Shown: piece by piece, positions 2,276-15,179 of the stretch
Layout of the letters: each line of letters opens with the position of its first letter
How positions within the stretch are numbered: the stretch's first letter is position 1
Origin: a virus
DNA: 20,333 nucleotides
Reading direction: 5' to 3' (one strand)
Virus record (IMG/VR): IMGVR_UViG_3300045964_000082
Coordinates: 1 to 20,333 of that record
Position numbers and translations under genes: made by a program
Notes under the pieces: model-generated
Told to the model about the DNA's origin: nothing
Databases searched by the model: none
What the model saw: only the letters and a program-made list of their open reading frames with translations

Positions 2276-4200
2276 GCGGCGTTCTGCTCCCCACCCCCGC
2301 CGCCCATAGCCTGCATCATCATCTGCTGCTGTTGGGCCTGCTGCATCATGGGGGCGACTTCGGCGAGGGCGCGCTCTAACTCAGCAACCTGTGGCAGCAC
2401 ATCCGCGGGGTTGGCAATGCTGTCGATGGTGTTCAACATCGCCTTGACGCCGTTCTCTACTTTCTGTAGCACGCTCATGAGTGCGGACTGAAGCGGCGGC
2501 GGGAGTTGAAGGGCCATCATCGCATACTGTAAAAGCTTGTCCGTGTATCCCATCAAGAACTGATTAATCATCAGCAATTCCTGCTTGCGGGATTCCATCG
2601 CGCTCGCCGCATCCTGCGCGTTGATGGTGAGCACGAACTGCTGCCGCGTGGTGGTCTCACTGGGGGTGAACACCATATCGGCCATGAGCATGGCTTCATC
2701 GAGGGGGAGAACCGCGGCAATCGACTCGATTGGTGGGCGGCGCTTCCACAGATCACCCGTCAGATACGCCCCTTGCTTGAGTGTCTTGGCGAAACTCTTG
2801 ATCGAGTTGATGACGAGGGTGCGGCCTTCGCGCTGGATGGAGATGCCGAGGGAGGCAGGTACGCGCTTACCGGTCTCCACCTGTCCGAAGGAGCCCTCAT
2901 CGAGCCCGAGGATGCGGAAGACATACTGTTTGGTATTCCCCTCCTGCATGAGCGCGACTTCGCTGCCGCGGGGATCGCCGAGGGGTTTCAGCACGAGATC
3001 CTCTTTGGGATCTTCGGTGACGGCGACATCGCCAGGGTTGACCGACATGCCAGCGTCGCCGAATTCCTTGGCGGCGTTGGAACCCTCTTTAATCATGACG
3101 GCGTGGGCGGTTGCACGCTTCGCAGCCTCGATGCCGAGGTTGTGGATTACGTCGGTCTCTTCCTGCGCGCCTTCTAGCTTCTCGCAGACGCCCTGTCCGC
3201 GCGCCTTCGTCGGGTCGGGTTCATCGTCGAGACGTGCGAGGAAGATGGGCTTGATGCCGCCGGGGATGGGACTACGCACGCAGCGTAACAGTTCGCCAGC
3301 CTCTACGTGCCACGTAAGTACAAGCGCGGTGGGGTAACCGGTGTAATCACGCGCATCGGGGTCGTCAATGCAGTAGCGCAGGTGCAACTCGGCGACACGG
3401 TGCGTCTTCAACTTCGCGGGCATGTCGTCGTAGGGGAGGGAGGCCATCGTCGTGTGCCCGGGGTTGTAGTGGGCTTTCACGCGGTCGAGTACGTTGGGGT
3501 AGAACTGTTTCGCCGCTCGCCAAATCTCCATCTCGCCCCATGTGATGTCGTATTCATGACCGCATAGAGGCATCGCCTGCGTGTCGTCGCCGTAGCCATC
3601 GACATAGATGAGATCTTGGAAGGCGATGAAGTCCCACTTGACGCGGCTCTTCGACGGTACCAGCGTGGGGACGCCGTTCGCGTCGAGCACATAGCACGGC
3701 GGGGTGATCTCTTCATAGACCTTGATGCCCGCGGTGCCGAGATTGACCACCTCGTTGATGGCTTTCTCGACTGCGGTGGCGCCGTCGAGGCCGTTGGGGC
3801 TGTCGAACTCAGCTTGAAAGACGCGACTGTAGGCGGTGGCGAGGCGGTTGAGATCCACCCCGCTGTCACTGGCCGACTTGAGGGGGAGAGCGGCAAGGAC
3901 CGGCTTACTCTCAAGCACCGCCTGTCGAATACGCGCACGAATCGCTGCCGATGCCCACAGTGTAAGCGGCGTGCTGAGATTACTGACACCGCGTCGAAAC
4001 GGCGGTACACGCCGCACGCCTCGTAACGTTGAATGCCACGTTGCAATGCGGTCTTTGATATTGTCGTTTTTATCCCGATTCATACGAAGTGTCGGGATGT
4101 ATGCACGTAACCACGCAGTTAGTTGCTTGTGAACCTTATCCGGCAGCACCAGGAGGGGCGTATGCTGCATCTCTTCAAGCGGATCTTTCTCGTCAGCCAT
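2272..4200 (-). CDS. Portal protein
   Basis: A 642-residue protein lies directly after the large terminase and before scaffold and capsid genes, the standard portal position. The ATG has a TAGGAGA ribosome site seven bases upstream. The sequence has the look of large portal or head-to-tail connecting proteins: an N-terminal part with helices and a VYEEITPPCYVLDANG strand region (about 165-182), a central segment DFIAFQDLIYVDGYGDDT, and PGGIKPIFLARLDDEPD (about 315-330). A long helical C-terminal crown region follows, with a Q- and M-rich stretch and a GGGGG tail near the end. The portal forms the dodecameric ring through which DNA enters and leaves the head. A role other than portal is unlikely given size, position and composition, though no single diagnostic motif exists. 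Confidence 0.8.
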   Translation of the reverse strand: MADEKDPLEEMQHTPLLVLPDKVHKQLTAWLRAYIPTLRMNRDKNDNIKDRIATWHSTLRGVRRVPPFRRGVSNLSTPLTLWASAAIRARIRQAVLESKPVLAALPLKSASDSGVDLNRLATAYSRVFQAEFDSPNGLDGATAVEKAINEVVNLGTAGIKVYEEITPPCYVLDANGVPTLVPSKSRVKWDFIAFQDLIYVDGYGDDTQAMPLCGHEYDITWGEMEIWRAAKQFYPNVLDRVKAHYNPGHTTMASLPYDDMPAKLKTHRVAELHLRYCIDDPDARDYTGYPTALVLTWHVEAGELLRCVRSPIPGGIKPIFLARLDDEPDPTKARGQGVCEKLEGAQEETDVIHNLGIEAAKRATAHAVMIKEGSNAAKEFGDAGMSVNPGDVAVTEDPKEDLVLKPLGDPRGSEVALMQEGNTKQYVFRILGLDEGSFGQVETGKRVPASLGISIQREGRTLVINSIKSFAKTLKQGAYLTGDLWKRRPPIESIAAVLPLDEAMLMADMVFTPSETTTRQQFVLTINAQDAASAMESRKQELLMINQFLMGYTDKLLQYAMMALQLPPPLQSALMSVLQKVENGVKAMLNTIDSIANPADVLPQVAELERALAEVAPMMQQAQQQQMMMQAMGGGGGEQNAA

Positions 4201-4209
4201 TCACGTCTC

Positions 4210-6801
4210 CTAGATGCCGGTGCCAGTTACGCCGGAGGTGGCGAGGCGTAGGGCGCGATGTGCGCGGCGGGCGGCGGTCTGTGCATCGATGCCGCCGTCG
4301 GATTGGTTCAGGAAGACTTCCTCGGCTTGTGCGAGCGTGTCGAGCCAGTCGAGGGTGCCACTTGGAAAATGTCGCACTTCATGCAGCGGGAGTTGAAGTC
4401 CGGCACGTACATACAACAACCCCTGTCCAATCACATTCCCCACACGACGTTTGATACGATCCAGCTTGGATGTGCCCTTCGCAGGGGGGATCATTTCGAT
4501 GGGGGGCAGGGTGCGGCGTTTCTTACGGACGCCATCACGTGTCATACCGGCGGCATGCTTGATCGCGACCGCCATGTAACTCTGCGCCGCAACCTTCTCA
4601 ATCACCATCTTGCGCACCTTGCCGGGGATCTTCTCGTCCATCTCGTCTAGCATGTCCATGACTTGCCAGACGGATTCATCGGGGCCAAAACGGTCCGCCC
4701 TTACCGAGATCGTGAACCGGCGCCGCGTCGGCCGGTCGTAGGCGAACCAGCTGATCGACGTGCGGGCCGAGGTTGCTTCTTGTGAAGTGGCGGGGTCGAT
4801 GGAGATGATGTGGGGTTCAAGTTGTGAAAGTGGGAGAACCTCTTCTCCTCCTTCCCCATTAAGGAGGACACACCACTCTCGATTTGTGCGACCATTTGTC
4901 GTAACTGGGCAGATGTCGAGTTTGAAGTCGCGGATCTTATCGACTTTGAGTTCGCTGGCTTGGGTGGGGTCGTTGAGACGTTGAGCCGAGTTGGATGAAG
5001 CGATACCCCAAACGACATAGTTACCTGAAGTCGTGCAAAGCGCATAGACACGCTCCACACCCGCGGGCTCGATGCTCGTGACCTTGATTCGGCCATTTTG
5101 TTGGCCCTCTTTACGCAAACCAAGTCGTCCGGGATGCTTCCACATCCGATCAACAATTTGCTGTTTCTTACCGATGGCCGTGCGTGTGAGTAGGCGTGAC
5201 ATGAAGTCACGGTCTGAGTTAAGCACCCAAGTTAGCGGTACGTTTTGACCGTTACGCCATGTCTTGTCATCAGTCCGTTTATACTTCTTACGGAGATGCG
5301 GAATCTTAAGTGCAGACAAGCACCGATCAATTCGCTCGACCACGCAGCCGTTGACTTCCTCAACCTGTGTGATGGTGATGTTGGTGTGCTTAAGGGAACC
5401 TTCGCCATCAAGAATGCCCGCTAGGTAATGCCACTCGGAGTTGTCGGTCTCATTTAGCCAGTCGTTGACAACGCGAACGAAACGACGACCGGCACGCGGT
5501 ACGTCATACAGCTTGCGTGCGGTCTGGCTACTACCCTTATCTGGTAAGCGTCCGGTGTAGAACTTGTGTTCGGGAGTGCAGCGGATTACGGAGCCGTCAC
5601 TGAAGGTGACTTTAACGACCGGTGCGACGCGCGATCCGACAGCCAACACGGTAGCCTTGACAAGCTTCGCCCGCTTTCCTGTGGCGACAGGCTCAAACCC
5701 CACCACCTCATCACCGACTTTGACTTCATCTAAACGCCGCTGTGTCCAATCAGACATCAGGATTGGCGCTTCACCGGGGTTACAGAAGATCGCTTCGCCT
5801 TCTTCTTGTCGTAGGCGAGCGAGTGCTTCGGCGTCGCGGTACGGACCTTCCGGCCATAGCGACTGTTCCGTCGGCGCACAATCCTTAGTCTCGTCAGAAC
5901 CCCAGCGACCACAATTGCCAACGCCATGCACGTAGCAACGAAAAACACCACGGCGCCAGATGTCCCATTCGGTGTACTCGTTGTGGATAAGAGAATTGAC
6001 ATCATCGAGCGTCCATCGGTTTTCCTCGACGAGTACGAAGCCGCCGTAGGGCTGTCGGGGGTCTCTGTGCGACAAGAGCGCCGGTGCGGTCTTCAACCAG
6101 TCGCGGAGCCGGTTCATTTCGCCACTGCTACGCCAGTTGTGATCGCCGACAAGATCGCTGACGATGAGCCCGTCGAGGCGGCCGCCGACGATGGCGGTCT
6201 CGGTGCCGAATGCGGTGAGGAAGGCGCCAGGTAACTCCGGCTGCAACCGCCCTGGTAGATACATCTCCTCGTCGTTGAAGGAGCCGTAGTCGGTGCGAAG
6301 TGGATTCTCCCAATTCAACTCGGGGAAGAGGAAGCGGAAGAAGGGGTTGGTGAGGTAGAAGCGGCGTACTGCACCGGTGAAACGAGTAGCGGCTTTCTTC
6401 GTGTCGCCCGCGATCGCAAGCCGCATATCCGTGCCCTTGAGGTGCGGGTGCTGCATGAGGAATGCATCGATGCGGGCGAGTTCGTTGGGGTGGTCATAGC
6501 GGTCGTCGCCACGTTGGATGCTGCACCACACGGGGATGGTGCGGGTGCTGCCGGTCGTTTTCACGTAGCTGCGGGGATCCTCTAGCAGCCCGCGCTTCTT
6601 CTCACATACGATCCATTGCAGCCAGTCCTGCCGCTCTTTGAATACCTCCGCGGTCATCGTGTTGCGGGGCTCGTTGTAGCTGACGAGCATCTTGGCGGTG
6701 AGGTAGAGGGAGCGGCGGACCATGGCGCGCAAGGTGGCCCGCACTTCCCAACTCTCGCTGAGAATGATGGCTTCGATATCGGCTTTGTTGAGATCCTTCA
6801 T
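4210..6801 (-). CDS. terL: Terminase large subunit interrupted by an intein
   Basis: The 863-residue product contains terminase motifs split by a 265-residue intein; the spliced protein would be 598 residues. The ATPase half carries the deviant Walker A region EDPRSYVKTTG (74-84) and Walker B region RLDGLIVSDLVGD (208-220). The nuclease half has an RNase H-like first acidic site in HIISIDPATS (D669), a second in MVIEKVAAQSY (E735) and a third in TLDWLDTLAQA (D818/D821). The enzyme would cut concatemeric DNA and pump it through the portal. The exteins join as EEGEAIF/SAQRLNDP, which matches the conserved 'F..Q..NDP' element of TerL proteins and confirms that the insertion is precise. The gene lies six bases after the upstream small gene. 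The intein boundaries are annotated separately. Confidence 0.93.
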   Translation of the reverse strand: MKDLNKADIEAIILSESWEVRATLRAMVRRSLYLTAKMLVSYNEPRNTMTAEVFKERQDWLQWIVCEKKRGLLEDPRSYVKTTGSTRTIPVWCSIQRGDDRYDHPNELARIDAFLMQHPHLKGTDMRLAIAGDTKKAATRFTGAVRRFYLTNPFFRFLFPELNWENPLRTDYGSFNDEEMYLPGRLQPELPGAFLTAFGTETAIVGGRLDGLIVSDLVGDHNWRSSGEMNRLRDWLKTAPALLSHRDPRQPYGGFVLVEENRWTLDDVNSLIHNEYTEWDIWRRGVFRCYVHGVGNCGRWGSDETKDCAPTEQSLWPEGPYRDAEALARLRQEEGEAIFCNPGEAPILMSDWTQRRLDEVKVGDEVVGFEPVATGKRAKLVKATVLAVGSRVAPVVKVTFSDGSVIRCTPEHKFYTGRLPDKGSSQTARKLYDVPRAGRRFVRVVNDWLNETDNSEWHYLAGILDGEGSLKHTNITITQVEEVNGCVVERIDRCLSALKIPHLRKKYKRTDDKTWRNGQNVPLTWVLNSDRDFMSRLLTRTAIGKKQQIVDRMWKHPGRLGLRKEGQQNGRIKVTSIEPAGVERVYALCTTSGNYVVWGIASSNSAQRLNDPTQASELKVDKIRDFKLDICPVTTNGRTNREWCVLLNGEGGEEVLPLSQLEPHIISIDPATSQEATSARTSISWFAYDRPTRRRFTISVRADRFGPDESVWQVMDMLDEMDEKIPGKVRKMVIEKVAAQSYMAVAIKHAAGMTRDGVRKKRRTLPPIEMIPPAKGTSKLDRIKRRVGNVIGQGLLYVRAGLQLPLHEVRHFPSGTLDWLDTLAQAEEVFLNQSDGGIDAQTAARRAHRALRLATSGVTGTGI
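4990..5784 (-). mobile_element. Intein with LAGLIDADG homing endonuclease domain, inside TerL
   Basis: The intein begins at Cys340 (codon 5782-5784) in CNPGEAPILMSDWTQRRLDE and ends at Asn604 (codon 4990-4992), followed by Ser605 as the first downstream extein residue. Splicing block A is the N-terminal segment up to VGDEVVGF; block B is IRCTPEHKFYT with H412; block F/G is VYALCTTSGNYVVWGIASSN. The penultimate residue is Ser instead of the usual His. A single LAGLIDADG-type motif is visible at 459-470 (YLAGILDGEGSL), so the endonuclease part is short. Inteins splice themselves out of the precursor and, if the endonuclease is active, spread to intein-less alleles. Total length of 265 residues is between a mini-intein and a classic two-motif intein. 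Confidence 0.92.
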
Positions 6802-8543: not shown

Positions 8544-8598
8544 TTGCAGTTGTGTAGTCTAGGGGTGTGATGGTGGGACGAGCTACCAACCAACGCGA

Positions 8599-8614
8599 TA
8601 GGTTACATTACCTA
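8599..8614. repeat. Short inverted repeat TAGGT-N6-ACCTA
   Basis: TAGGT (8599-8603) and ACCTA (8610-8614) are separated by six bases that include part of a TTACA motif like those clustered at 14122-14234. This may be an operator; a chance origin is possible at this arm length. Confidence 0.3.
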
Positions 8615-8707
8615 CATCATGCGTGCTCCCCCCACCGCCCCGCACACACGGCAGCGAAAGCAAGGTCCGATAACATCTAGTATGTCAACTCGATGAGCGT
8701 GATTAGC

Positions 8708-8737
8708 TTGACGTGGCGCGCTCACCCCCGTTATGCT
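8708..8737 (+). promoter_or_regulatory. Candidate rightward promoter 2
   Basis: TTGACG (8708-8713), an 18-base spacer and TATGCT (8732-8737) fit sigma-70 boxes at five and four of six positions. It is the better-placed candidate for driving the early operon that begins at 9160, leaving a leader of about 400 bases that contains several inverted repeats. Confidence 0.4.
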
Positions 8738-8832
8738 ACTTTCGCCCCCAATCGACCGCGGTAATCGCGCGCTTTCGCCTCAGCTGCCGCACCGCACACA
8801 GCATGGCACGCTGCGTTGCAGCGCACATAACA

Positions 8833-8886
8833 CATATGCGCCATACCACAACACGCATATGCAGCATCATCACATCCCATATGCGA
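8833..8886. repeat. Three CATATGCG-type sites
   Basis: CATATGCG (8833-8840), its reverse complement CGCATATG (8854-8861) and CATATGCG again (8879-8886) occur within 54 bases. The first two starts are 21 bp apart, about two helical turns, so they would present on the same face of DNA. Sites of this kind are typical of operators or origin iterons. Exact 8-bp identity of all three makes chance unlikely. Confidence 0.5.
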
Positions 8887-9159
8887 AAAGGCTGGAATAG
8901 GCGTCGGGTTTTGAGTGGGCTAAACTTTCCCCTCCCCACGCCAACACAGCCGCAAGATTCGTGCCAAGTATGATTGTGGTTATCGAGCGTGACGAAATAT
9001 CAACCTTTTTCGTGGTGCCTAGCCATGAACGGGCGGCATTATACCGGCAGGCGTAGGGGAGGCGAAAGGAGTGTTAAATGTGAGGCGGGGGCTTGCACGA
9101 CGATGCGCCATGACGTACATTCACGGCGTAACGTCATTCAAGGAAGGAAGGGTGTACTC

Positions 9160-9330
9160 GTGCGAATACATGTTGATTGCCTCTCTTGTGGTCAGTCTTA
9201 CGACTCCAACGTAAGGTTTGGTTACGAAGTTAAGGTGTTTGAGTTTCCCAAGTGCGGCGCTTGTGGCTGCGATCACCCCGATATGGTTATTCAGCGTGTG
9301 CTAAAGACGCCGCTACGGGATAAGGAGTGA
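9160..9330 (+). CDS. Small zinc-ribbon-like protein (56 aa)
   Basis: The frame is open from 8974, but the GTG at 9160 is preferred because a strong AGGAAGGAAGG ribosome site (9141-9151) lies eight bases upstream. The product has two cysteine pairs, CLSC near the N-terminus and CGACGC after FEFPK, the layout of a small zinc ribbon. It would be the first gene of the rightward early operon. The function is unknown; small zinc proteins of this type in early regions often bind nucleic acid or host proteins, but nothing here is specific. Confidence 0.75.
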   Translation: MRIHVDCLSCGQSYDSNVRFGYEVKVFEFPKCGACGCDHPDMVIQRVLKTPLRDKE

Positions 9331-9338
9331 ACCGATCG

Positions 9339-9563
9339 ATGAACCACATAGACCAGCTGGCTAGCTTGAAGGGACGGCGCGGGACGTTGAGTCTGCGCCA
9401 CCGTTGCGGAATCGTGCTGAGCGCGGCGGTTGAGGTAATCGACGCCAAGACCAATTTTGGCGGCACGATCATCAAGATTGTGGATGGGCGGCAGGTGAGC
9501 GCATGGGTCGCGTTGGATAGCGTGACGTTTGATGTGGAGGAGGTGTCTGATGAGCGTGCATAG
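9339..9563 (+). CDS. Small early protein, beta-rich (74 aa)
   Basis: ATG at 9339 (MNHIDQLASLKG) is served by AAGGAG at 9322-9327, which also covers the end of the preceding gene; a GTG at 9327 is a less likely start. The sequence alternates hydrophobic residues in a way suggesting a small beta barrel (GIVLSAAVEVID, GTIIKIVDG, VSAWVALDSVTFDVEEV). No known family was recognised. It overlaps the next gene, as expected in a compact phage operon. Confidence 0.7.
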   Translation: MNHIDQLASLKGRRGTLSLRHRCGIVLSAAVEVIDAKTNFGGTIIKIVDGRQVSAWVALDSVTFDVEEVSDERA

Positions 9564-11821: not shown

Positions 11822-12091
11822 ATGTGGAACCACGAACCGCCGACGGGTTGGACGGCGTATGATTGCGAAGTGTTTCTTATGCGGTTGTTCAAGTATGACG
11901 CTTGCGAGCGGTGCGGACGGGGGGATATTCACCATATCGTGCGGGCGACGGCGGGGCTGCCTGACATGCCGTCGGTGGTGTGCGTTGTACCCGCCGGGAT
12001 ACCTACCCTCGCACCCTTAAGACCAAACGCGAATGCGCACAGAAAAGGGGAGGAGGTTCGCGATGAACCCCCTCCCCCGGATGTTTCGTAG
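11822..12091 (+). CDS. Small protein with Cys/His metal-binding pattern (89 aa)
   Basis: ATG at 11822 (MWNHEPPTGW) gives 89 residues, with GGGGG about ten bases upstream. The middle segment CERCGRGDIHHIVRATAG (about 29-46) resembles an HNH-like or zinc-site stretch: a CxxC pair followed by HH. It lacks a second CxxC pair that a full HNH endonuclease would need. The final ~30 residues are coded by the strong hairpin at 12047-12077 and are proline-rich, so the true C-terminus may not be under selection as protein. It is the last plus-strand gene before the minus-strand island. Confidence 0.6.
   Translation: MWNHEPPTGWTAYDCEVFLMRLFKYDACERCGRGDIHHIVRATAGLPDMPSVVCVVPAGIPTLAPLRPNANAHRKGEEVRDEPPPPDVS
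12047..12077 (-). terminator. Strong hairpin terminator for the minus-strand island
   Basis: Arms 12047-12059 and 12065-12077 pair over 13 positions with one mismatch (A12054 against C12070), with a five-base loop GCGAT. On the minus strand the stem is followed by TTTTCT, as expected for a Rho-independent terminator ending the transcript that comes from the genes at 12112-14103. It lies inside the end of the plus-strand gene 11822-12091, so it may also slow transcription in that direction. Confidence 0.65.
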
Positions 12092-12111
12092 CTAGTTGCT
12101 AAGTGTCTAAC

Positions 12112-12366
12112 TTACCTACGCTTGCGGCGTGCGGCACGTTCGGCGGGATCATCTTGCGGTGCGCGATACTCTTGCAACGAGTCGTCGAGTTGGGGAGTGT
12201 CGTCACCACCCTTCTGCTTGACACGTAGACCGCCGCCGGATGGGTTGCGCGTCTGATCGCCAGGGTAGACGACATCACCCGTGCCGATGTCTCCCCATTC
12301 GAAGGTACCAGCACGGCGAACCTTCCCTTTACCGCCCGTGATGCGACCGACTGCCTTGCCCGCCAT
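12112..12366 (-). CDS. Small basic protein, unknown (84 aa)
   Basis: ATG at 12366 lies two bases beyond the stop of the Ig-like gene. The product has a short N-terminal glycine- and lysine-rich part, a stretch FEWGDIGTGDVVYPGD suggesting a small beta structure, and a charged tail ending RAARRKRR. No family recognised. As the last gene before the terminator it would be co-transcribed with the Ig-like and ClpP-like genes. A weakly defined ribosome site suggests coupling. Confidence 0.65.
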   Translation of the reverse strand: MAGKAVGRITGGKGKVRRAGTFEWGDIGTGDVVYPGDQTRNPSGGGLRVKQKGGDDTPQLDDSLQEYRAPQDDPAERAARRKRR

Positions 12367-12368
12367 GG

Positions 12369-12689
12369 TTACTTAGGCACCGGCGTGTCAGCATTCAGAC
12401 CAAGGTTCGTTGCCATCGCGCCGAGGACGTGGCAGCTGATCGTGTCGGCGATCGTCTGCACGCCACTGCCGAGGTCCGCATCCGCGCTGACCAGCACGGA
12501 CGAATCGCCGGGGTCATCGCCAGAGACGATGTAAGCACTCGTCGCGTCGATCGCCTCGATGGTGCAGGTACCAAGGACAACCTCGAACGCCACCGGCCCG
12601 TCCAGCTGCGCAGGCCGACCGGTCGAAGTAACCGGGGTAACGGAGACGCGAATCTTCTCCTCATTCGTGAACGAAAGATCAAGAGCCAT
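12369..12689 (-). CDS. Ig-like domain protein (106 aa)
   Basis: The frame is open to 12824, but ATG at 12689 is preferred: a GAGGAGG ribosome site lies six bases upstream. An extension from ATG 12785 has coding-like codon use and cannot be excluded. The product is beta-rich and reads like a bacterial Ig-like (Big-type) domain: EKIRVSVTPVTSTGRPAQLDGPVAFEV-like, then YIVSGDDPGDSSVLVSADADLGSGVQTI and ending with an alanine-rich segment (GAMATNLGLN). The 'SGDDPGdS.v.VsADADLGsGvqtI.dti' pattern is shared by small phage proteins of the Ig-like type. Such domains decorate virions or bind surfaces in some phages; this gene is remote from the structural operon, so its role is open. Confidence 0.75.
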   Translation of the reverse strand: MALDLSFTNEEKIRVSVTPVTSTGRPAQLDGPVAFEVVLGTCTIEAIDATSAYIVSGDDPGDSSVLVSADADLGSGVQTIADTISCHVLGAMATNLGLNADTPVPK

Positions 12690-12842
12690 GTCCATCCTCC
12701 TCTTGGATTCAACGGGGCCAATGTGGTAGTGGAATGCGGTGGCGCGGGGCTTTGGCTTCTTGCGGAAAAGGTTGCTCCATCCCATGACGGTCATACTAGC
12801 AGCAGCGGGGTGTATGTGAGTCATTGTGTGCGATCTGTGCGA
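12690..12842 (-). other. Region between ClpP-like and Ig-like genes
   Basis: This 153-bp stretch is free of a stop codon in the frame of the Ig-like gene for its left two thirds and could encode an N-terminal extension from 12785 (starting MGWSNLFRKK, basic). No ribosome site precedes that ATG. The alternative is a leader with a promoter; no clear boxes were seen. Confidence 0.35.
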
Positions 12843-13454
12843 TCACAACGGCCACGTCGCACCAGACTTGATGACATGATCCGCGGCGCCATGCTTGACA
12901 GCCTCGTCAGCAGACATGAAATGGTCGCCGGTTTCTTGCCAACGGTTGCGGAGGCGCGAATCGACGGTGGTGTAGGCGTTGATGATCGCACGGTCGGTCT
13001 CTTCGCACAGTTCCCCTTCGCGCTTGTTGCGGGTGTTGGTAGACGTAGCGTGGGTCATGTACGTCGATAGCTCATGTGCGTAGCGATGCCCTTTGCTGCC
13101 GCTGATGAAGATGTTAAACGCGGCGCTGCACACATCGCCCACGCCGATGGTTGTGACGACGAGACCGCTCGCTTTGCACGCTTCGATGGCGCCGATGGCG
13201 GCACGGGCGTAGGGCTCCTCACCGCCGGGGCTGCAGATTATCAACGTAGGGGGTTGCGCGCGTTTCAGTGCAAGTAGCAGGAACGAGAGACACATATCCC
13301 CGACCGCCTCATCGATCACACCTGCAAGCGTGAAGATGCCATGATCGTTGGCGAGGGTGGTTGCTTGTGTATGCGAGAAGGCGGCACCGAACGCAGGCGG
13401 TGAGGTGACAGTCGGCGTGCAGGTATTACAAGTATTCTCGATTTCGTCGCTCAA
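12843..13454 (-). CDS. ClpP-like serine protease
   Basis: The 203-residue product shows the ClpP fold pattern. IFTLAGVIDEAVGDMCLSFLL (40-60) matches strand 1 and helix, LIICSPGGEEPYARAAIGAI (71-90) carries the SPGG oxyanion motif, and TTIGVGDVCSAAFNIFISGSKGHR carries the nucleophile Ser110. STYMTHAT carries His135, and GDHFMSADEAVKHGAADHVI places Asp177 where E. coli ClpP has its catalytic Asp171. The triad thus looks complete. The start is a TTG at 13454 supported by a GGAGA site, with a four-base overlap on the HExxH gene upstream. ClpP-like proteases in phages usually act as prohead proteases next to capsid genes; this one lies in an accessory island, without an associated capsid gene and without a visible ClpX/ClpA partner. 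Substrate unknown. Confidence 0.85.
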   Translation of the reverse strand: MSDEIENTCNTCTPTVTSPPAFGAAFSHTQATTLANDHGIFTLAGVIDEAVGDMCLSFLLLALKRAQPPTLIICSPGGEEPYARAAIGAIEACKASGLVVTTIGVGDVCSAAFNIFISGSKGHRYAHELSTYMTHATSTNTRNKREGELCEETDRAIINAYTTVDSRLRNRWQETGDHFMSADEAVKHGAADHVIKSGATWPL

Positions 13455-13942
13455 TTGTCATCTCCGTCTGTGATACATGGTGCAAGTTCGCCATGGAAGC
13501 CGAGGGTCGCCTGCACCCACGATTCGCTGTCCATGGATGTGAATGTGGTGCCGTATTTTGTCACAAGTCGGGTGTGTATGGCGTGTAGGTACTCATGGGT
13601 CAGCACGATGGGTAGCCAGCACTCTTCGGATGGCAGTAGGTAGACAATGATGCGCTCCCGTAACACCACTGTACCAGCCGCGTCGATTTCATAGCCAGCT
13701 AGGTACATGCCGAGGATGCGATTGGCGCCGTCGGGGGTGCGGAGGACGCGCCACTCTCGCACCACTTCAGGAGAATGCCACTGTGAGGGCACCAGATGCC
13801 CTGTGTTGAGCGTAAGAGCGCGGGCGGTACTCCAAGACGCCCGCTCTACCATCACCTGCCTAGGGGCATCCACGCAGGCTACAGAAGAAACCACTACAAT
13901 TGTAAGAATCAGTCGTTGTACGGGATGTGCAGAACAACGCAT
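13451..13942 (-). CDS. Exported HExxH metallopeptidase-like protein (163 aa)
   Basis: The N-terminus has a basic start and a hydrophobic segment (MRCSAHPVQRLILTIVVVSS, then VACVD), consistent with a signal peptide or a lipoprotein signal with C23 as the candidate lipid site, though Ser rather than Leu at -3 is atypical. The core motif is PIVLTHEYLHAIHTRL (111-126) with H116, E117 and H120 as in zinc metallopeptidases; a third ligand cannot be located with confidence. It would act outside the cytoplasm, unlike the overlapping ClpP-like gene downstream. The start overlaps the upstream small gene's end. Role could be wall or surface protein cleavage; this is inference. Confidence 0.68.
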   Translation of the reverse strand: MRCSAHPVQRLILTIVVVSSVACVDAPRQVMVERASWSTARALTLNTGHLVPSQWHSPEVVREWRVLRTPDGANRILGMYLAGYEIDAAGTVVLRERIIVYLLPSEECWLPIVLTHEYLHAIHTRLVTKYGTTFTSMDSESWVQATLGFHGELAPCITDGDDN

Positions 13943-14103
13943 GGGAGCACCACGATACCGGTACCGGGAATGAACACTCGAACGGAAACGCCGCCCTCGT
14001 TGTTGTAGCGATCCTTGAATGCGCTAGACACCACCATGCCCAGTGGTGCACTCGGGTTGTCGCCGATCTGAACCAGCAAGCCGACCTTGGGATTGCTAAC
14101 CAC
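13909..14103 (-). CDS. Small beta-rich protein, unknown (64 aa)
   Basis: GTG at 14103 (MVSNPKVGLL) is favoured because GGAGGG lies six bases upstream; the frame is open further to 14151 but that start lacks a ribosome site. The product is rich in beta-forming hydrophobics (VGLLVQIGDN, GMVVSSAFKD, VSVRVFIPGTGIVVLPCVV). No family is recognised. It is the first gene after the TTACA-rich region and overlaps the start of the HExxH gene by 34 bases, so it opens that operon. Confidence 0.6.
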   Translation of the reverse strand: MVSNPKVGLLVQIGDNPSAPLGMVVSSAFKDRYNNEGGVSVRVFIPGTGIVVLPCVVLHIPYND

Positions 14104-14231
14104 GACCGTCCCTCCATACGCTGTAAGCCCAAAGTGTAAAGATCCCTGCACAGTTCAGGGATTTACAGCAGGGTCCGTTACAATCTGTATCTGTTGTAAA
14201 CAAAGAACTTACACAGCACACTTCGGTTTTG
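14104..14231 (-). promoter_or_regulatory. Regulatory region with seven TGTAA/TTACA motifs
   Basis: The 128-bp gap between the ATPase gene and the next gene holds TGTAA or its complement TTACA at 14122, 14135, 14163, 14179, 14195, 14209 and 14230 (the last partly reaching the ATPase stop). Two pairs form dyads: TTACAA-N10-TTGTAA (14178-14183 with 14194-14199), and a longer bulged hairpin GTAAAGATCCCTG with CAGGGATTTAC (about 14136-14169). It likely contains the promoter of the 14103-12112 genes and operators for a regulator. No convincing -35/-10 pair could be fixed. Confidence 0.55.
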
Positions 14232-15179
14232 CTACCCATTTACAGTGGAAAATTCCCGTACTCGGGCGATGCGCTTTCGCACCATGTTTGCCGAGATACC
14301 CATGACTCCTCCCTTGCCTGGTAGACGGTTCCCCAAAGCCATGGCTTCAATGTTCGTCACCTCCCGCTTGCCGGTTACGATTTCGTCATAGGGAAGCTTG
14401 AGCGCCGTACACGCCGCTTGCAGCTGCTTGATGATCGTTCGCGCACGGGACTCGTTGTACGCTTCGGCTTGCCCCGCATCATCAATGTAGAGACGGATGT
14501 CATTCGAGAGCAGCGGGGAAACTTGACTCTTGCTGTGGGTGAGCCGAGATTCGCTATGGCCGGAACGCCGCATGGACAACTGAACCGTGCAGTGGGCTCG
14601 CCATAACTGACTGCCAAGGAACGATTCGCTGCCAAATTCCTTGGTTTCCTGGGACATTTTTCGGTCATGTCCCAGAAGGATGATGAGCCGGTTGGGGAAT
14701 AGTTGATGTAGGCGGGTGACGACTAGGTTGGCTGTGTCATCGTCTCGGATTGAACGTCCGCCTAATAGACCGCCCAAGGCATCCACGGCGATGATCTGGA
14801 CGTTGTTGTCCGTCACATACTCCGCGATCTTACCAAGATACAAAGCATTCGATGGACTTGTTACGTCCATCCGATCCATACAGCACACTGCGAATTTGGG
14901 ATTGAAGTTCGCCCAACGGATCTTCAAAGAAGATTCGTTCATGTCGTTGCACAGTAGAATAGAACTAGTCGGCGTTGTCGGGATGCCTAGATAGGGCGCA
15001 CCATCCGCACAGTGATGAAGGATGCCCCACAGCAGGGCGGACTTACCGCAACCAGGGGAGCCGTGCAGTAGTACGACACCGCTGCTGGGTAGTACGCCCT
15101 CCCATACGAATGTCGGATTTGTAAGTGATTCGGCATGATTCATCCAGCCCTCCGGGCGAATAATTTTAGGCTCGCTCAA
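14232..15179 (-). CDS. RepA-like (AAA_25-type) P-loop ATPase
   Basis: A TTG at 15179 with AAGGAG ten bases upstream gives 315 residues; an ATG at 15143 with GGAGGG five bases upstream is an alternative start. Walker A is GSPGCGKS (40-47), Walker B is VQIIAVDALGG (127-137) with D133, and LIILLGHDRK (165-174) and FLGSQLWRAHCTVQLSM (188-203) match RecA/RepA-like helicase motifs (sensor and 'RGSsal' type). The C-terminus (VTNIEAMALGNRLPGKG, then MVRKRIARVREF) looks like a winged-helix DNA-binding part. Such ATPases act as hexameric replication helicases or DNA-binding ATPases in plasmids and phages. It is transcribed divergently from the Sak4-like operon. Confidence 0.8.
   Translation of the reverse strand: MSEPKIIRPEGWMNHAESLTNPTFVWEGVLPSSGVVLLHGSPGCGKSALLWGILHHCADGAPYLGIPTTPTSSILLCNDMNESSLKIRWANFNPKFAVCCMDRMDVTSPSNALYLGKIAEYVTDNNVQIIAVDALGGLLGGRSIRDDDTANLVVTRLHQLFPNRLIILLGHDRKMSQETKEFGSESFLGSQLWRAHCTVQLSMRRSGHSESRLTHSKSQVSPLLSNDIRLYIDDAGQAEAYNESRARTIIKQLQAACTALKLPYDEIVTGKREVTNIEAMALGNRLPGKGGVMGISANMVRKRIARVREFSTVNG

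Follow-up and report, generated by a model that had tools for sequence, protein, structure and literature searches.

Gene content and genomic context

The locus is a block of minus-strand genes in a virus record of 20,333 bases (the window), which is part of a circularly closed, podovirus-like genome of approximately 50.4 kb. The record IMGVR_UViG_3300045929_000104 (G001, 50,568 bp) represents the same phage at 100% identity, and since a 127-bp repeat located at positions 8796-8922 of the window is found at both ends of G001, the genome closes to a circle of this size. The remainder of G001 is podovirus-like in content and encodes a scaffold-like ORF, a capsid protein (PF25209, phrog_371), an SU10-type adaptor (PF24175), a virion protein matching phrog_3287 and a 1360-aa protein. 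The capsid ORF (G001 8590-9561, minus strand) starts at about position 333 of the window and runs off its left end. Searches of viral_contigs recovered no close relatives of the whole phage except the same genome, and no tRNA or Rfam elements were found.

The block, all features of which are encoded on the minus strand, is headed by an AAA_25-type (RepA/KaiC-like) ATPase gene at 14232..15179 (Pfam AAA_25 at 2e-10, over the cut-off), which also matches the DNA polymerase/primase family phrog_906 (1.4e-8) and carries AAGGAG ahead of its TTG start. The initial annotation described a cluster of five genes; all five ORFs are present at the places it gave, and the ATPase gene adds a sixth to the block upstream of them. 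A 64-aa protein (13909..14103) is read from GTG14103 with GGAGG upstream, a longer alternative reading begins at GTG14151, and profile searches returned no family match for it. It is followed by the gene for a probably exported 163-aa HExxH protein (13451..13942), a putative lipoprotein and zincin whose start, ATG13942, has a weak ribosome site, and by the gene for a 203-aa ClpP-like serine protease (12843..13454) that starts at TTG13454 with ACGGAG. The last two genes encode a 106-aa Ig-like protein (12369..12689) and an 84-aa small basic protein (12112..12366), the latter without a family match among Pfam and PHROG profiles. For the Ig-like gene a 151-aa reading was rejected in favour of the 106-aa start, ATG12689, which is preceded by AGGAGG.

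Downstream of the 84-aa gene a hairpin at 12078-12046, with a 14-pair stem containing 9 G-C pairs followed by the T tract CTTTTC, forms a convincing intrinsic terminator that closes the block; the surrounding region (12030-12100) folds with -32.2 kcal/mol (z = -4.7), in agreement with the strong terminator originally proposed. The genes for the HExxH protein and the ClpP-like protein overlap by exactly four bases (13451-13454), also as described. At least three further 4-base overlaps occur in the same phage (G001 16341-16344, 20924-20927 and 33308-33311), and with at least four such junctions in one genome this overlap is no sign of a special pairing. An inverted repeat (ATCCCTG...CAGGGAT, 14140-14165) lies between the ATPase gene and the gene for the 64-aa protein and could be an operator or a weak terminator. 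A reading of the cluster as anti-phage defence was rejected, as none of its five proteins has a match in PADLOC; the upstream ATPase gives two weak matches there, to TRIP13 (0.0015) and mads_8 (0.017).

A viral ClpP with a shortened handle region

Profile, catalytic triad and predicted fold identify the ClpP-like protein as a true member of the S14 proteases. It matches PF00574 at 9.6e-15 (55.4 bits, cut-off 20.2), and a profile scan of viral sequences yielded at least 426 matches, of which the best 80 (the phage itself and 79 others) were kept; the spacing and neighbourhood figures given here are derived from this set and describe the nearest relatives only. The Ser-His-Asp triad, noted from the sequence at the outset, holds up in the alignment: Ser110 (codon 13125..13127), His135 (13050..13052) and Asp177 (12924..12926), as well as the oxyanion residues G77-G78, are invariant in 80/80 sequences (best 80 of at least 426). 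An AF2 model based on the window protein together with 46 viral relatives (47 sequences) reached a pLDDT of 78 and a pTM of 0.72 and retains the ClpP fold, aligning with M. tuberculosis ClpP1 (2c8t_A, VIA-align) over 166 residues at a Z of 23.1 and an rmsd of 2.2.

The protein scores 59.4 bits against its best viral relative and 28.8 bits against the best cellular PDB chain, and it therefore belongs with the viral set. Bacterial ClpP, such as the M. tuberculosis enzyme, shares its fold and catalytic residues but only 19-24% identity. The viral family to which it can be compared (PF00574 / MEROPS S14) includes the proteins of Synechococcus phage BUCT-ZZ01 (ON615601) and Sinorhizobium phage Phosso (PV764938), which have the triad and the oxyanion Gly-Gly in common with it at an identity of no more than 35%; in the regions viewed, their clpP genes, like that of the window, have no capsid gene next to them. 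The phage has no other ClpP, and a search for an AAA_2 Clp ATPase among its genes came up empty.

Where the window protein departs from this family is the handle region. The stretch between the catalytic His and Asp measures 42 residues, nine fewer than the 51 found in 79/79 viral relatives (best 80 of at least 426), whereas the distance from the Gly-Gly pair to the catalytic Ser is three residues longer (33 versus 30, again in 79/79 relatives of the best 80). With 49 residues in F. tularensis ClpP, the bacterial enzyme is likewise longer, so that the window protein falls short of the usual handle length of standard tetradecameric ClpP (42 versus 49/51). The GKEHEL handle motif of the BUCT-ZZ01/Phosso family is absent from it, and the AF2 model renders the region as a low-confidence stretch followed by a 16-residue helix. 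The shortened handle suggests an altered stacking of the rings.

A probable exported protein with a zincin signature

The HExxH protein is a probable zinc peptidase and a putative exported lipoprotein. Its motif HEYLH (residues 116-120; 13583..13597, minus strand), the putative zinc site, lies within a match to PROSITE PS00142 (VLTHEYLHAI), the sole one among ORFs of at least 80 aa in the phage sequence searched. In the viral clpP loci, which amount to 873 kb of DNA from other viruses, the signature turned up a single time, and at this frequency the match is unlikely to be due to chance. Glu140, embedded in DSESWV, is a candidate third zinc ligand. At the N-terminus a lipobox (LTIVVVSSVAC, residues 13-23) preceded by Arg2 follows the rule of PROSITE PS51257, and the signal-bearing HExxH protein of the initial annotation finds support in the signature and in a lipobox-type signal predicted by sequence rule. 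A single-sequence AF2 prediction was poor (pLDDT 41); in it the HExxH motif is helical, and Glu140 opens the helix that follows.

In Pfam nothing exceeded the cut-off for this protein, the best match being DUF2268 at 0.16. Weak alignments to zincin families (DUF2268, Tox-MPTase5, SprT-like) centre on the HExxH motif in the window protein and in two look-alikes, L020 and L138, but lie far below the cut-offs, and the window protein differs from these families in being small and in carrying an export signal; it is accordingly not filed in any named family. The protein has no sequence match in the phage collection or the PDB, and its profile found no relative in genome_contigs; a match at E = 6 in the phage collection was ignored.

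A scan with a DNA pattern recovered the one clear homologue, L020, in a phage record of 50,033 bp (G002). The two proteins are 33% identical over 120 aa, and L020 keeps both HEYLHAI and the DSE of the putative third ligand. Because the motif had served as the search seed, the part preceding it was tested alone: it scores 50 compared with 26 +- 4.6 in shuffles, a value that 2/5000 shuffles reach, while downstream of the motif the similarity is not significant. The first 4 bp of the L020 gene, which starts at 4559, overlap the end of a gene for an M15 endolysin (4083-4562; phrog_465, 2e-11). At the protein level (E 1e-3) G002 has only the DNA polymerase A and the HExxH gene in common with the phage of the window. 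A second scan, for HEY.HA, returned mostly unrelated zincins; only L138 has the same architecture, with a similarity that is not significant, and its record contains no ClpP.

The two proteases are not a conserved pair

The initial annotation singled out the locus as an accessory island that pairs a ClpP-like protease with an exported HExxH protein. A terminated cluster away from the capsid genes is indeed what is found; the pairing as a meaningful unit, on the other hand, finds no counterpart at the loci of relatives. An ORF with the HExxH signature within 2.6 kb of clpP was seen at 0/79 viral loci (best 80 of at least 426 matches), a result that speaks to close linkage only, given that many flanks are short and that part of the contigs are fragmentary. 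The 48-kb phage G004 (L023) encodes both a ClpP and an exported HExxH protein of the metzincin type, more than 10 kb apart; this latter protein contains HEYLHAMGSQGH, and clpP lies there between exonuclease-like and HD-hydrolase-like ORFs.

The neighbours vary from phage to phage. The G002 record, which holds the HExxH homologue, contains no ClpP. The Ig-like protein, which matched no known family and nothing in the phage collection, has a homologue (51% identity across 95 aa) on L192, a contig of 7.5 kb assigned to a Peregrinibacteria bin, and neither a ClpP nor an HExxH gene was seen among the listed ORFs of that contig. On L192, probably a phage contig, the homologue adjoins a second ORF of similar ending, the two lying at 4764-5502 on the minus strand. 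As the HExxH, ClpP and Ig-like proteins each have relatives that lack the others, the pairing is not conserved, and from sequence comparison the locus has the appearance of a common accessory-gene mosaic rather than of a conserved two-protease machine.

Setting aside a tempting but unsupported pairing leaves two less ambitious leads. One is the divergent viral ClpP, whose short handle makes it a suitable case for studying whether assembly differs among phage ClpPs. The other is a small family of probably exported HExxH proteins, present in two otherwise nearly unrelated phages and in one of them encoded by a gene overlapping that of an endolysin, which could be a lysis helper.

Functional interpretation

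The reading that we consider the more probable one, albeit with reservations, is that of a mosaic accessory operon in the early or replication arm of a podovirus-like phage, with two proteases that most likely act independently; the assignment to this arm follows from the gene types in the neighbourhood. The ClpP-like protein would act in the cytoplasm during takeover or replication. Since the search for an AAA_2 Clp ATPase of the phage itself was negative, it may borrow the Clp ATPases of the host; alternatively, it could act without an ATPase on unfolded or small substrates. The HExxH protein would be a zinc peptidase anchored in the envelope, where it would trim one of the envelope proteins, most likely so as to sensitise the cell to lysis, or else to remodel its surface.

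Possible, though with a distinctly smaller probability, is a narrower version of the envelope half of this reading, in which the HExxH protein belongs to a wider phage family of lysis accessories and its place in this operon is fortuitous. The overlap of the L020 gene with the endolysin gene in G002 argues for it, as does work on Listeria, where a phage-derived secreted metzincin and a TIMP-like lipoprotein sensitise the cell to phage lysis (PMC8235301). By analogy, this locus is the closest system studied by experiment in which a phage zinc protease is exported and acts on lysis: Mtz is an exported protein encoded beside a partner gene (PMC8235301), as the window protein is predicted to be, but compared by description the window protein does not have the metzincin HExxHxxGxxH motif, and its partner gene encodes a cytoplasmic serine protease. 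Against a lysis accessory stands the position of the phage's own M15-type endolysin, which lies elsewhere (G001 33308-33679), so that such a role hinges on the single clear homologue; the L138 gene, of the same architecture though not significantly similar, is not located beside an endolysin gene.

Phage lipoproteins with roles in superinfection exclusion or host range are known, and the lipobox-type signal would suit a role of the HExxH and Ig-like proteins as surface factors of this kind. We regard this as rather unlikely, since the Ig-like protein (106 aa) showed no evident export signal and matched no known family.

The relatives' neighbourhoods bear on a further reading, in which the ClpP-like protein would serve in head maturation, as a prohead protease whose gene has moved away from those of the capsid. 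The initial annotation took ClpP-like phage proteases to sit usually beside capsid genes and noted that capsid genes lie more than 11 kb away here. The distance is real: some 12 kb separate clpP from the capsid gene, and its block has a terminator of its own. The premise is nevertheless unfit for this family. The PHROGs frequent among 49 genes flanking the ClpP relatives (best 80 of at least 426) comprise DNA primase, helicase, thymidylate synthase, endolysin, tape measure and NUDIX. Head morphogenesis was matched two times, and terminase, portal and major capsid proteins are not among the 25 most frequent families. By these sequence matches, the window protein is a member of a widespread viral ClpP family with mostly replication, nucleotide-metabolism and lysis genes as neighbours, for which the distance from the capsid genes is normal. 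ClpP has also been listed among the host-metabolism-type genes in environmental viral genomes (PMC5332604). A match to phrog_94 'head maturation protease' (1.7e-7), whose ClpP-type members share the S14 domain, and the presence of no other ClpP in the phage count in favour of a prohead protease; phrog_1827 'ATP-dependent protease', however, is matched about equally, and the same is true for all 47 family members. Head maturation proteases are encoded among portal and capsid genes, a setting that the window clpP lacks, and the capsid protein matches major-head profiles from about residue 12, which would leave no long N-terminal domain to be removed and gives no sign of a cleavable N-terminus. 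A displaced prohead protease is thus improbable.

Still less credence is due to a relay across the membrane, in which the anchored HExxH protein would cut an envelope protein and ClpP degrade the released cytoplasmic part, akin to the regulated proteolysis of anti-sigma factors: the genes are adjacent, overlap by four bases and have products predicted in opposite compartments, but the pairing is absent at the 79 viral clpP loci (best 80 of at least 426), the record that carries the HExxH homologue has no ClpP, overlaps of four bases are a common feature of the phage, and neither an intramembrane protease nor an anti-sigma-like gene was noticed in the vicinity. Just as implausible is a two-compartment module of a membrane-anchored zinc peptidase and a co-translated, short-handled ClpP acting sequentially on one host envelope protein or regulator in the course of infection.

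Other features of the genome

Two observations concern genes outside the block. In a part of G001 beyond the window (L009, 31305-37960) the DNA polymerase A is represented by two ORFs approximately 4 kb apart, between which lie HNH and homing-endonuclease-like ORFs, the M15-type endolysin and membrane or exported ORFs; no Rfam intron was found. Within the window, the ORF for the terminase large subunit (4210-6801, minus strand) contains an intein at approximately residues 338-608 with a LAGLIDADG-like stretch, the nearest phage matches of which lie in mycobacteriophage portal genes, one of them annotated as intein-containing.
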